Shown here: positions 5,723 to 44,581 of the stretch, in pieces | Layout of the letters: each line of letters opens with the position of its first letter | Numbering within the stretch: the first letter of the stretch is position 1 | Assembly: GCA_014653835.1 (NCBI GenBank) | Contig: JACWDY010000002.1 | Location: forward strand, 90,001 to 154,000 | DNA: 64,000 nt | Source of the DNA: Pelagibacterales bacterium SAG-MED28 | Lineage (GTDB): Bacteria; Pseudomonadota; Alphaproteobacteria; Pelagibacterales; Pelagibacteraceae | Direction: 5' to 3' | Translations under genes and position numbers: made by a program | Notes under the pieces: generated by a model | Databases searched by the model: none | Seen by the model: the letters and a program-made list of their open reading frames with translations, nothing else | Told to the model about the DNA's origin: nothing

Positions 5723-6934
5723 TTAATCTAAATCAAAAATTGTATGTAATTTTTTAACAGCTTTTAAAGTATTTTCTTCCTCAATAATTACTGAAAGTTT
5801 AATTTCTGAGGTTGAAATAGCTAAAATATTAATATCTTCATCAGATAAAGCTCTGAACATTCTATAAGTAATTCCTGGTGTAGACACCATCCCAGCACCA
5901 ACAATTGAAATTTTTGCAACTTTATTATTATGAATTATCTCTTTATATTTTATTTTACTATTGTTTTTTAAAATTTGTGTCGTTTTAGCAACATCATCTC
6001 TTTTAACAGTAAAGGTTATATCTGTAGTCTTTTGATCAGATGATATATTTTGAATTACCATATCTACGTTTATTTGTGCTTTACTTAAAGGTTCGAATAT
6101 ATTAGCAGCCACTCCTGGTTTATCCTCTACACTTATAATTGTTAATTTTGCATCATCTTTGGAATACGCAACTCCTGTAACGCTTTTTGAATAATCAATA
6201 TTTTCTTGGCTAAATATTTTTGTGCCTTTTCTCTCTGTAAAAGTTGACTTCACTTCAAGAGGAATAGCATACATCATTGCCGTCTGAACTGCGGAAGATT
6301 GCATAACTTTTGCTCCCAAAGACGACAATTCTAACATTTCATCATAAGAAATTTTTTCAATTTTTTTTGCAACTGGTATTTTATTTGGATCAGTTGAAAA
6401 CACTCCATCAACATCTGTATATATTTCACAACTATCAGCATTAAATATCTTTGCGATTGCGACTGCTGATGCGTCAGATCCTCCTCTTCCTATTGTAGTG
6501 ATGTCTCCTTTTTTTGAAATACCCTGAAAACCTGGTAAAATTGCAACGCCGTCATCGTCTAGATATTCATTTATTTTTTCAATATTCATGTTTATAATTC
6601 TTGAATTTGTATGTTCTCCCTCAGTAAGTATAGGTATTTGCCAATTTTGCCAAGATTTTGCTTTTACATCTATTTCAGTTAAAGCTCCTGATAAAAGCGC
6701 TGATGTAACCTGCTCTCCTGAAGATAGAAGGACATCCATCTCTCTTTTATTAAATTCCTCTGAAATTTGTTTAGAAAGATTAATCAATTCATTAGTTTTT
6801 CCAGCCATTGCCGAGACAACAACAACAATTTTGTTTCCTGCAAATCGCTCTTTTTTTATAATTTTTGCAACATGCTGTATTCTTTCACTTGTTCCAACAG
6901 ATGTCCCGCCAAACTTTAGTACTTTTTTAACCAT
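5723..6934 (-). CDS. lysC: Aspartokinase
   Basis: LysC phosphorylates aspartate, the first step toward lysine, diaminopimelate, threonine and methionine. The 403-aa protein has an amino-acid kinase domain opening with KFGGTS (7-12), a TTIGRGGSD motif and ELSSLGAKVM, followed by two C-terminal ACT domains (about 265-330 and 345-403) that normally bind inhibitory lysine or threonine. This is the monofunctional alphaproteobacterial type. It starts the minus-strand group lysC-ispG-prfA-prmC-DUF4167 and is divergent from ubiG across a 56-bp spacer. Feedback regulation is inferred from the ACT domains. Downstream dap enzymes dapD and dapE are also in this window, at 24.3-26.3 kb. Confidence 0.97.
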   Translation of the reverse strand: MVKKVLKFGGTSVGTSERIQHVAKIIKKERFAGNKIVVVVSAMAGKTNELINLSKQISEEFNKREMDVLLSSGEQVTSALLSGALTEIDVKAKSWQNWQIPILTEGEHTNSRIINMNIEKINEYLDDDGVAILPGFQGISKKGDITTIGRGGSDASAVAIAKIFNADSCEIYTDVDGVFSTDPNKIPVAKKIEKISYDEMLELSSLGAKVMQSSAVQTAMMYAIPLEVKSTFTERKGTKIFSQENIDYSKSVTGVAYSKDDAKLTIISVEDKPGVAANIFEPLSKAQINVDMVIQNISSDQKTTDITFTVKRDDVAKTTQILKNNSKIKYKEIIHNNKVAKISIVGAGMVSTPGITYRMFRALSDEDINILAISTSEIKLSVIIEEENTLKAVKKLHTIFDLD

Positions 6935-12054: not shown

Positions 12055-13455
12055 TCAGATTTTTTTAAACGCACTTAAAGCTTTAACTCTAGCTTGTTCG
12101 TGTTTTACTATTGGTTTGGGATAGTCTTTTCCTAACTTAAATTTTTCATCGTTAAATTCCCAAGGTTTATGAATAAATTTTTTTGGAAGGTCTTTTAACT
12201 CTGGGACCCATTTTTTTACATATGCTCCCTCCTTATCAAATTTTTCACCCTGTAATATTGGATTAAATATTCTAAAATAGGGAGCGGCATCTGCCCCACT
12301 TCCAGCTACCCATTGCCAACCGGCAACGTTACTTGCTGGACTATAATCTAACAGACAATTCCTAAAATATTTTTCTCCCTCTTTCCAATTTATTAATAAA
12401 TGTTTTACTAAAAATGAACCAACAATCATTCTCACTCTATTATGCATCCATCCAGTTGAATAAAGTTCTCTCATGCCAGCATCAACAATAGGGTATCCGG
12501 TCAAACCTTTTTTCCAAGCATTTAGAAATTTTGAATTTTTTTCCCAAGGAAATTTATCAAATTTTTTTGAGTAATTATTTTTTAACATATGAGAAAAATG
12601 ATTTATCAAAGTATGATTAAATTCTCTCCAACCAATTTCAGCTAAAAATTTTGATGTACCGAAATTTTTAGGCTTAATTTTTTCACACTCAAGCCATATT
12701 GTCTCAACGTGAATTTGACCAAATTTTATGAAGGGAGATAATTTGGATGTTCCAACTATATTAGGATAATTACGACTTTCTGAGTATTTTGTGATTTTAT
12801 TTTTTATAAAATTACGTAACTCCTTTAAAGCATTTTCTTCGCTAGGAAGCCATAAATTTTCAAAATTTTTAAACCAATTTTTATTTGGCAATATTTCTTT
12901 AGGATCAATAGAATTTTCAAAATAATTTTTACTTTTAAAGCATTTTTTTATTAACTTTTCTTTTGGTGGTATTTTTTCAATATAATATTTTTCCGCAATT
13001 CTCCAAAATGGAGTAAATACTTTGAACGGAGTTCCATCATTTTTTTTAATTTCATTAATTTCATTGAGAGTATTTCCTTTACATATCTTGTGTAAAATAT
13101 TCTTATTTCTAAAATTTCTGACTAAATATTCATCAAATTTTAAATAGTCAGGCTCATAAACTTTATTCCAATAAAACGAAAAGTCGTTTTTTTTAAATAA
13201 TTTTTCAAAAAAAAACTTAAAAGACTCTGTTTCAATAATTTCGAGATTAATATTGAGTTTATTTAAATTTTTACGAAAATAAATTAAAGATTTGCTTAAC
13301 CACCATTTTTGAGCTTCTTGGTATTTATAATTATGTTTTTTGTATAAGTAAAAAACCACAACTTGATCATGGCTTCTAGTTGCCTCTATAAGCCCATAAT
13401 TTTTTAAAACCCTGAAATCGTCTCTCAACCAAAATAATCCAATTTTTTTATTCAT
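12055..13455 (-). CDS. phrB: Deoxyribodipyrimidine photolyase (cryptochrome/photolyase family)
   Basis: This FAD-containing enzyme repairs UV-induced pyrimidine dimers using blue light, which fits a sunlit-surface bacterium. The 466-aa protein begins MNKKIGLFWLRDDFRV, the photolyase N-terminal alpha/beta domain with the WxRxDLR-like motif. The FAD domain contains KLSPFIKFGQIH, EIGWREF, GYPIVDAGMRELYSTGWMHNRVRM and a WQWVAGSGADAAPYFRIFNP block. The start at 13455 is preferred over an upstream in-frame ATG at 13530, because that extension would run into tRNA-Phe and lacks homology character. It lies 51 bp downstream of tRNA-Phe on the same strand, so it probably rides on the infA/tRNA transcript. 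Confidence 0.96.
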   Translation of the reverse strand: MNKKIGLFWLRDDFRVLKNYGLIEATRSHDQVVVFYLYKKHNYKYQEAQKWWLSKSLIYFRKNLNKLNINLEIIETESFKFFFEKLFKKNDFSFYWNKVYEPDYLKFDEYLVRNFRNKNILHKICKGNTLNEINEIKKNDGTPFKVFTPFWRIAEKYYIEKIPPKEKLIKKCFKSKNYFENSIDPKEILPNKNWFKNFENLWLPSEENALKELRNFIKNKITKYSESRNYPNIVGTSKLSPFIKFGQIHVETIWLECEKIKPKNFGTSKFLAEIGWREFNHTLINHFSHMLKNNYSKKFDKFPWEKNSKFLNAWKKGLTGYPIVDAGMRELYSTGWMHNRVRMIVGSFLVKHLLINWKEGEKYFRNCLLDYSPASNVAGWQWVAGSGADAAPYFRIFNPILQGEKFDKEGAYVKKWVPELKDLPKKFIHKPWEFNDEKFKLGKDYPKPIVKHEQARVKALSAFKKI

Positions 13456-13506
13456 AAATATAAGAATTAACAGATTAAATTTTATATTACGATGTGTAAA
13501 AATTGG

Positions 13507-13581
13507 TGGTGGCCTTGGTAAGAATCGCACTTACGACACATACCTTTTCAGGGTACTGCTCTACTACTGAGCTACAAGGCC
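13507..13581 (-). tRNA. tRNA-Phe (anticodon GAA)
   Basis: A 75-nt cloverleaf can be drawn by hand. The acceptor stem GGCCTTG/CAAGGCC is perfect, with an A discriminator and encoded CCA. The D stem is GCTC/GAGC. The anticodon stem is GTACC/GGTAT (one G-T pair) around the loop CTGAAAA, giving anticodon GAA. The T stem is GTAAG/CTTAC. Two details are unusual. The D loop is only 7 nt (AGTAGTA) with a single G where G18-G19 is expected, and the T loop reads TGCGATT, with G instead of T at position 55. The first base (13581) is also the last base of the infA TAG stop codon. Confidence 0.93.
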
Positions 13582-13796
13582 TAAAATCTAAAAGTTATTC
13601 TACCTTTAGTTAAATCATACGGCGTCATTTCAACCATTACATTATCTCCTGCTAGAACTCTAATTCTATTCTTTCTTAGTTTTCCTGCTGTATGGGCTAA
13701 AATTTCATGGTTGTTCTCTAGTTTTACTCTAAACATAGCGTTCGGTAAAAGTTCAGTTACTTTTCCTTTAAATTCCAAAGTTTCTTGTTTTGCCAA
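13581..13796 (-). CDS. infA: Translation initiation factor IF-1
   Basis: IF-1 occupies the ribosomal A site region during initiation. The 71-aa OB-fold protein has the typical length and sequence, including [33 protein letters not shown] and the C-terminal [15 protein letters not shown]. The start codon is TTG (13794-13796), immediately after the hisD TAA with zero spacing. Homology to the MAK.. N-terminus of other IF-1 proteins fixes this start, and no ATG is available nearby in frame. The stop TAG ends on the first G of tRNA-Phe. Confidence 0.97.
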
Positions 13797-15095
13797 TTAA
13801 TTTTTCCTCTTTAATCTTAATTTTACTGAGTTAGCATGACCATCTAAATTTTCATGCTTTGCTAAATTTATAACCGATGGACCTAATCTTTCAATACCTG
13901 TTTTTGATATTTTTATTAACGAGTGACGCTTTAAAAAATCATTAACTGATAATCCAGAAGAAAATCTCGCAGAACCAGAAGTCGGTAGCACATGGTTCGG
14001 CCCTGCTATATAATCTCCGATAGCTTCTGGTGAGAATTCCCCTATAAAAATTGATCCTGCATTTTTTATTTCATTGATAATTTTATTGTTAATATTTGTA
14101 CATAATTCTAAATGTTCAGGAGCAATAGTATTAATTATTTCTGAAATTCTTTTTTTATTATTAGTAAAAATTGATAATCCAAATTTTTTTAAACTTTGAG
14201 ACGCTATGTTTTTTTTGGGTAACTGTTTAAGCTGTTTATTTAAAGATAAATTTACTAAACGAATTAGATTTTTATTATCAGTAATTAGTATCGATTGAGC
14301 ATAAACATCGTGTTCTGCTTGAGCGATTAAATCTGCAGCAACGAGTTCTGGATCAGCAAACTTATCGGCTACTATGCTTACTTCGGATGGGCCTGCCACC
14401 ATATCAATACCTACATCTCCAAAAACCTCTTTTTTTGCACAGGCAACAAATGTATTTCCTGGTCCAACTATTTTGTCTACTTTTTCAAATTTTTTAGTTC
14501 CGTAAGCTAAAGCTGCAATAGTGTGAGCGCCACCAGTTTTATAAATTGTTTTGACTCCACATTTCTTAGCTGCATAAACTATAGCCGGATTTATTTTTGA
14601 ATCCAATGACGGTGTGGCTAAATATATATTCTTTACCCCAGCAACAATTGCTGGAATACAATTCATTAAAACAGTGCTTGGATAACTTGCTGTGCCACCT
14701 GGTACGTAAACCCCAACTTTATCTATTGATGAATATCTGTAAGACAATTCATTTTTATATTTGTCTTTAAATCTAAAAGAAGAGAATTTTTGCTTTAAAT
14801 GGAATTTTTTTATTCTATTGAAAGCTAAATCAATAGCTTTTTTTAAGTTTTTATCTATTTTTTTTGAAAGTTTATTAATTTCATTGCTAGAGAAAAAAAT
14901 TTTATTTGATTTGTTTTTAATTTTTGAAAATTTTTTTTCATAATTCAAAACAGCTTTATCACCATTTTTTTTCACGTTTAGTATAATTCTGTTCACTGCT
15001 GGTATTTGACTTTTTTGAATAGTTCTACGTTTTTCCAAAAAAGTTTTTAAAGTTCTAATAGAATTTTTTTTATCATAATTTAAATTTTTGAGCAT
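13797..15095 (-). CDS. hisD: Histidinol dehydrogenase
   Basis: HisD performs the last two oxidations of histidine synthesis, histidinol to histidine, with NAD and zinc. The 432-aa protein has DKVGVYVPGGTASYPSTVLM, the GGAHTIAALAYGT motif, GPGNTFVACAKKEVFG, GPSEVSI, the catalytic AEHDVYAQS segment and the C-terminal zinc-binding region ending in HSL..., all in family order. Length is normal. The gene is alone in the histidine pathway here, in a run with murA, DUF2948 and infA; this order (murA-DUF2948-hisD...infA) is typical of Alphaproteobacteria. Confidence 0.97.
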   Translation of the reverse strand: MLKNLNYDKKNSIRTLKTFLEKRRTIQKSQIPAVNRIILNVKKNGDKAVLNYEKKFSKIKNKSNKIFFSSNEINKLSKKIDKNLKKAIDLAFNRIKKFHLKQKFSSFRFKDKYKNELSYRYSSIDKVGVYVPGGTASYPSTVLMNCIPAIVAGVKNIYLATPSLDSKINPAIVYAAKKCGVKTIYKTGGAHTIAALAYGTKKFEKVDKIVGPGNTFVACAKKEVFGDVGIDMVAGPSEVSIVADKFADPELVAADLIAQAEHDVYAQSILITDNKNLIRLVNLSLNKQLKQLPKKNIASQSLKKFGLSIFTNNKKRISEIINTIAPEHLELCTNINNKIINEIKNAGSIFIGEFSPEAIGDYIAGPNHVLPTSGSARFSSGLSVNDFLKRHSLIKISKTGIERLGPSVINLAKHENLDGHANSVKLRLKRKN

Positions 15096-44491: not shown

Positions 44492-44581
44492 TGGCGGAGA
44501 GAGAGGGATTCGAACCCTCGAAACGGTTTCCCGTTTACACGCTTTCCAAGCGTGCGCCTTCAACCACTCGGCCACCTCTCC
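44492..44581 (-). tRNA. tRNA-Ser (anticodon GGA)
   Basis: The 90-nt class II tRNA has acceptor stem GGAGAGG/TCTCTCC with one G-T pair, a G discriminator and encoded CCA. The D arm is GCCGAGTGGTTGAAGGC. The anticodon stem CACGC/GCGTG encloses loop TTGGAAA, giving anticodon GGA for UCC/UCU codons. The long variable arm is AAACGG-GAAA-CCGTTT, and the T arm GAGGG-TTCGAAT-CCCTC is canonical. The long variable arm is the serine identity feature. Its first base (44581) is the last base of the TAG stop of the upstream glycosyltransferase gene, repeating what is seen at tRNA-Phe. Confidence 0.97.

Follow-up and report, generated by a model that had tools for sequence, protein, structure and literature searches.

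How far can the compaction of a genome go before RNA processing collides with translation, and is it by rescue, by timing or by A-tailing that bacteria cope with such collisions? Both questions are raised by a junction in the 64-kb stretch of DNA analysed here, hereafter the window, where the infA gene for translation initiation factor IF1 adjoins the gene for tRNA-Phe (Table 1). An earlier note on this DNA had claimed that the TAG of infA and the 5' end of the tRNA overlap at a single base, 13581, and on this the open reading frame (ORF), the ARAGORN and Rfam predictions and the acceptor stem agree. The 3' end of infA reads AGA TTT TAG; of the stop only TA belongs to the gene alone, the final G being borrowed from the tRNA as its G1. 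The seven pairs of the acceptor stem GGCCTTG/CAAGGCC, beyond which come A73 and a CCA that the gene encodes, fix the 5' boundary of the tRNA at 13581. Because the stop of hisD abuts the start of infA and the stop of infA overlaps the tRNA, hisD-infA-tRNA-Phe contains zero non-coding bases. The genome, which is 89% complete, has one match to infA and one copy of tRNA-Phe among the 25 tRNAs detected. A second CCA follows the encoded one (CCACCA, 13504-13509), as it does in many, not all, relatives. The names hisD and photolyase-like are presumptive, having been read off the sequences.

Table 1. Features at the infA/tRNA-Phe junction and at two further tRNA junctions; positions refer to the window unless another locus is given.
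Feature	Position	Strand	Remarks
infA (IF1)	13581..13796	-	71 codons, TTG start, TAG stop; Pfam PF01176, E 7.6e-26, above cut-off
infA stop TAG	13581..13583	-	base 13581 doubles as G1 of tRNA-Phe, paired with C72
tRNA-Phe(GAA)	13507..13581	-	ARAGORN; Rfam RF00005 match at 13581-13510; CCA encoded
Possible 8-bp hairpin CUAAAGGU/ACUUUUAG	13588..13609	-	infA tail, 6 nt before tRNA-Phe
hisD	13797..15095	-	upstream of infA; stop abuts the TTG start at 13796
Photolyase-like ORF	12055..13455	-	downstream of tRNA-Phe; listed to 13530, likely start ATG 13455
Glycosyltransferase-like ORF, 341 aa	44581..45606	-	TAG stop at 44583-44581 overlaps tRNA-Ser at base 44581
tRNA-Ser(GGA)	44492..44581	-	starts at 44581
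recJ-like ORF/tRNA-Glu example	L021 1501-1522 (G000:C1:83472 on)		22 nt inside the tRNA, whole stop borrowed

Within the genus, the shared base at infA was found in 42 of the 43 genomes read. This count takes each genome once; six of the 27 genus genomes in which the family survey matched infA lie outside it, and the named single-cell loci were kept out because some of them appear to be genomes already counted. The first search of the genus yielded 30 loci, every one with TTTTAG followed by GCC, and the same one-base overlap occurs in L058, which ends GGCTAG, and in 11 named single-cell loci (L108-L118). Across 42 loci, which represent 39 distinct sequences, infA invariably stops with TAG. Synonymous sites in infA vary widely among these loci, several four-fold sites carrying all four codons, and the variation is apparently lower in the last nine or so codons. 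The T-stem of the tRNA is GTAAG/CTTAC in 33 of the 42 loci and GTTTG/CAAAC, a compensated change, in the other 9, from which tRNA-Phe appears to behave as a tRNA under selection. In the sole exception, G202, an insertion of 2748 nt parts the two genes and infA ends with TAA; this may be viewed as a natural experiment, albeit a single case, in which separated genes come with a complete stop. The insertion (L370/L454, G202:C3; about 2.7 kb) holds three ORFs of at least 250 amino acids, one of which appears to resemble pyruvate kinase.

The arrangement recurs at other tRNAs of the same genome. It had been noted before that the tRNA-Ser in the window is overlapped in the same manner, and this is borne out, the TAG of the upstream ORF ending on the first base of the tRNA. 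A third one-base overlap, outside the window, involves tRNA-Val(GAC) and a sugar-nucleotide-transferase-like ORF; the names glycosyltransferase, sugar-nucleotide transferase and recJ are read off the sequences and should be taken as presumed. Seven G-starting tRNAs in this genome lie no more than 60 nt from the end of an ORF on their own strand, and exactly one base is overlapped at three of them, for which P is about 1.4e-4 under a naive null of uniform offsets. TA precedes 13 of 41 G-starting tRNAs that have such an ORF end at this distance versus 4 of 65 without one nearby, 5 of the 13 being the infA junction in five related genomes. Of the window ORFs with 100 amino acids or more, 7 of 54 stop with TAG; near tRNAs, 50 of 201 ORFs with 150 amino acids or more do so.

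Five genus genomes contained 132 tRNAs, 59 of which had a same-strand ORF ending between offsets -100 and +60, positive values being bases inside the tRNA. Offset +1 was observed seven times (infA in all five genomes, and the Ser and Val junctions in the genome of the window) and +2 once, at tuf (EF-Tu)/tRNA-Trp in G101. Offset +22 was found at recJ/tRNA-Glu in G000, G006 and G101, and also in G021, where recJ was missed by the ORF filter and the offset was assigned manually; recJ of G117 ends at offset 0 with TAA. A row at +24 for tRNA-Asp in G101 was discarded as spurious, the 67-aa ORF in question running through the upstream tRNA-Val. For comparison, 58 of the 65 alphaproteobacterial loci L123-L187 were used, 7 Pelagibacteraceae or uncertain loci being left out. 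They contained 92 tRNAs, and near 22 of these an ORF on the same strand, no shorter than 100 amino acids, came to its end: none at +1 but 8 at +10, 1 at +21 and 1 at +35; the comparison is a weak one, since long ORFs in GC-rich genomes may be spurious and tRNAs carry TAG at positions 8-10.

Wider sampling within the genus revealed several depths of overlap at genes unrelated to infA. In 30 tRNA-Ser(GGA) loci, taken from 73 genomes with a match, eight upstream ORFs overlap the tRNA by one base with TAG (seven with IDDF-type ends, one different), two end at 0 with TAG, ten at -2 to -6 with TAA, and single ORFs at -5 (with TAG), -17 and +47, the remaining seven loci having no nearby ORF. Among 22 tRNA-Val(GAC) loci, six ORFs end at +10, using the TAG that occupies tRNA positions 8-10, two at +1, one at +21, one at 0 and ten at gaps of 1 to 185 nt, and two loci have none. 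Thirty tRNA-Glu loci were taken from 61 genomes with a match, and in 28 of them the recJ frame enters the tRNA by 22 nt and stops on the TAG of its D-loop. One of the other two ends at 0 with TGA; in the second, L193, which has only 54 nt to the contig end, the frame seemingly stops 10 nt ahead of the tRNA. The tuf gene of G101 (L271, G101:C3) ends in T, and its UAG is completed by A1 and G2 of tRNA-Trp; the gap between tuf and tRNA-Trp is 5 nt in the genome of the window. To judge from these sequences, tRNA genes are ready-made stop donors in the genus. The view that the infA overlap belongs to a pattern of compaction rather than to chance, already put forward in the earlier note, is thereby backed by its conservation, by its recurrence at the tRNA-Ser, tRNA-Val, tRNA-Trp and tRNA-Glu junctions of the same lineage, and by the three one-base overlaps at seven tRNAs.

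To place the overlap in the family, 147 genomes were searched, of which 126 contained infA, and 74 of the 99 genomes from outside the genus, representing 11 genera, were read. In 55 of these 74, tRNA-Phe lies near infA, at gaps of 53, 51, 40, 13, 8, 7, 6, 5, 4, 3, 1 and 0 nt, and all 55 retain a complete infA stop; in the other 19, tRNA-Phe was absent from the stretch read after infA. None of the 74 has the overlap, and among the genomes read only the genus of the window reaches +1 at this junction. The overlap, its recurrence and the link to compaction stand as first described; to these can be added that the one-base overlap at infA is restricted, as sampled, to one genus. Further afield, 61 other alphaproteobacterial loci were compared. 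In 21 of them tRNA-Phe follows infA on its strand at a distance of 883-1407 nt; the other 40 lack a tRNA-Phe up to 1500 nt, break off at the end of the locus or defeated the search pattern, which missed or misread L178 and L183, both counted as misses. In three relatives (L160, L161 and L178) the sequence after infA reads like Maf, an identity presumed from a motif. With a distant tRNA-Phe in other alphaproteobacteria, Maf-like sequence in between and short gaps in the genera of the family, we infer that the change ran towards adjacency, by loss of the intervening genes and of spacer. On a hisD tree of 36 rows, the +1 state needs two changes, and the rows with a gap, L119, L120 and L122, nest among the +1 rows. 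The tree would allow one gain and one escape, an uncertain reading, since it leaves ten of its inner branches open and contains two very long rows.

Two further features of the genes vary among these lineages. The infA gene starts with TTG (13794-13796 in the window) in every row of g1, g5, g6, g7, g9, g11, g13 and g17, the sampled genera with tRNA-Phe at 40 nt or less, and with ATG in g8, g10, g12 and g15. Of 62 alphaproteobacterial loci from elsewhere, 61 have ATG and one was unmatched. For a gene that encodes an initiation factor, TTG is a weak start codon. The tRNA-Phe has the D-loop AGTAGTA and the T-loop TGCGATT in 42 of 42 genus loci and in 7 of 7 named sister loci; GG and TTC are found instead in the one tRNA-Phe seen from f2 and in 43 alphaproteobacterial tRNA-Phe of the listed classes. 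G18 and U55 are near-universal in tRNAs. We take the loops to carry A18 and G55 in place of G18 and U55, which, as far as the sequences tell, is a paired change at a core tertiary contact.

What would the shared base mean for the expression of infA? Since G1 is also the third base of the stop, every transcript that holds the full infA stop holds the first base of the tRNA, and every one that extends across the entire tRNA would be a substrate for RNase P. RNase P cleaves at the 5' end of tRNAs, before G1, and from this known site and the anatomy of the junction the infA message is predicted to be cut to an end in UA. Competition between tRNA maturation and infA translation, one of the options in the earlier note, would in part be imposed by this anatomy. 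We consider it probable, at roughly 0.6 for the account as a whole, that the junction arose by compaction and that its consequences are met by ribosome rescue. Genes between infA and tRNA-Phe, maf and perhaps others, would have been lost so that the two became neighbours, and the spacer would have shrunk until G1 became the third base of the UAG. hisD, infA and tRNA-Phe would most likely be carried on one transcript. As long as this is uncut, ribosomes would terminate normally at UAG; once RNase P has cut before G1, tRNA-Phe would be freed and the infA message would end in UUUUA with no stop codon. Ribosomes reaching this end would then be released by tmRNA/SmpB and the message would decay, so that each infA message would template IF1 only until its own tRNA-Phe matures, a cost that the lineage would tolerate. 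The gene loss, the co-transcription, the cleavage and its timing, and the rescue are all inferred from the genome sequences.

The rescue system on which this account draws is present, tmRNA having been found in 33 and SmpB in 38 of 41 genomes, and each in 14 of the 14 that are at least 90% complete. In a bacterial PURE system, a stop codon spanning the human ND1/tRNA-Ile junction permits termination and the processed, stopless end blocks it (PMC9674279). Non-stop products seem to be tolerated in the genus, because A-tailing cannot mend the stops at 28 of the 30 recJ/tRNA-Glu junctions. The 55 adjacent relatives that keep a whole stop nevertheless suggest that crossing into the tRNA carries some cost, and given complete stops in 55 of 55 genomes outside the genus, simple tolerance may not be the whole story. 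At 1.3 and 2.4 kb beyond the tmRNA gene (G000:C42:5673-5754 and 6768-6850) there are weak, partial matches to tmRNA that stay below cut-off, with similar ones in six other genus genomes; these are perhaps remnants of integrations at tmRNA.

The conflict would be small if tRNA-Phe were made mainly from a promoter of its own inside infA, so that few infA messages span the whole tRNA. A tRNA-Phe found only once must be made in quantity, and a promoter could account for the reduced synonymous variation in the last nine or so infA codons. However, a consensus scan of 13440-13900 gave two promoter-like sites versus 1.9 expected, and no terminator-like site. The two promoter-like sites lie inside hisD, so that infA contains none. 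The 13 overlapped tRNAs score no better than shuffled sequences, yet neither do 73 isolated tRNAs: the mean excess of the promoter score was 0.05 for isolated (n=73), -0.19 for overlapped (n=13) and -0.26 for gapped tRNAs (n=46), a comparison that has no power because the isolated tRNAs also resemble shuffles. Moreover, a promoter inside infA would leave the tRNA base in any message with an intact UAG. We regard separate transcripts as a possible but rather unlikely way out.

It is less probable again that essential genes are punctuated here in the manner of mitochondria, RNase P stripping one or two bases from the stop and either A-tailing rebuilding UAA or the loss coupling IF1 to tRNA-Phe maturation. 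For the first of these variants, a nucleotidyltransferase or PNPase would add A residues to the UA end. The ends left at +1 (UA) and at +2 (U, tuf/tRNA-Trp in G101) are precisely those that tailing converts to UAA; one nucleotidyltransferase of the PAP/CCA type was found, in a genome where 25 of 25 tRNAs already encode CCA; and such tailing occurs in human mitochondria (PMC4493943). The enzyme, however, scores below every NCBIfam cut-off, and best as a CCA enzyme. Nor would tailing, from the two bases before the tRNA, mend the 28 recJ/tRNA-Glu cases at +22 or five of the six tRNA-Val cases at +10, the exception being L238, which ends in TG. Repair by A-tailing is accordingly doubtful, and the recJ and tRNA-Val sequences favour plain tolerance with rescue over it.

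The second variant, a selected regulatory link in which IF1 output drops as tRNA-Phe maturation rises and the supply of initiation factor and tRNA is thereby balanced, strikes us as more doubtful still. Both genes serve translation, 42 of the 43 genomes read share the base, all 47 genus rows have a TTG start for infA and a possible hairpin lies just ahead of the cut site. Against this, the same overlap occurs at the glycosyltransferase-like/tRNA-Ser and sugar-nucleotide-transferase-like/tRNA-Val junctions, and TTG starts are also found in other genera that have no overlap. The hairpin has a mean of 7.6 of 8 pairs in the genus versus 5.8 in tails redrawn from the codon use of infA, a difference in which ancestry and codon bias remain and one side is fixed by the amino acids; it also retains 7 of 8 pairs in L121, which has no tRNA within 600 nt of infA. 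Its conservation is suggestive, a hint only. Finally, although TA before G is cheap in an AT-rich genome, as the 4 of 65 tRNAs with no nearby ORF end illustrate, and TAG is common near tRNAs (50 of 201 ORFs), coincidence or an annotation artefact can be set aside for infA, given the 13 of 41 tRNAs with a nearby ORF end (five of them infA in related genomes), the retention of the overlap across wide synonymous divergence and its presence at several different genes.

The reading that we prefer, compaction with rescue, has parallels in several known systems. Zero spacers and overlaps, as in hisD-infA-tRNA-Phe, are shared with the gene overlaps of streamlined SAR11 genomes, but here a protein gene is joined to a tRNA on one strand, and RNA processing of one product would damage the other. 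The arfA message of bacteria is reportedly a programmed non-stop message, cut by a nuclease inside the coding region for regulation; the infA message, too, should be deprived of its stop by a nuclease and become a client of tmRNA, except that the cut would be tRNA maturation itself, any regulatory role being hypothetical. At secG-leuU of Escherichia coli, RNase P is said to separate the tRNA from the upstream message, as it would at infA, but there the stop is spared because untranslated sequence lies between it and the tRNA, a protection that infA does not have.

The closest known system is the tRNA punctuation of animal mitochondria, as in human MT-ND1/TRNI and MT-ND2/TRNW, where a coding sequence with an incomplete stop directly adjoins a tRNA. 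A literature search that covered few subscription papers found this mitochondrial work and no description of a bacterial gene whose stop codon extends into a tRNA. This is weak evidence that the setting of the junction-shared stops seen here, a free-living bacterium instead of mitochondria, is new. In human ND1 and ND2, the uncut junction with the tRNA reads an in-frame stop and tRNA 5' cleavage leaves U or UA (PMC4493943; PMC9674279), whereupon polyadenylation completes UAA (PMC4493943). The bacterial junction differs in that UAG spans it and tmRNA/SmpB are present, completion by an A-tail being known for the mitochondrial junctions. Ready-made controls exist in the other genera, where the gap is 0-8 nt, and in G202 with its insertion. 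Were mitochondria-style punctuation or a coupling of IF1 to tRNA-Phe to prove true after all, the junction would be a bacterial example of the processing logic of organelles.
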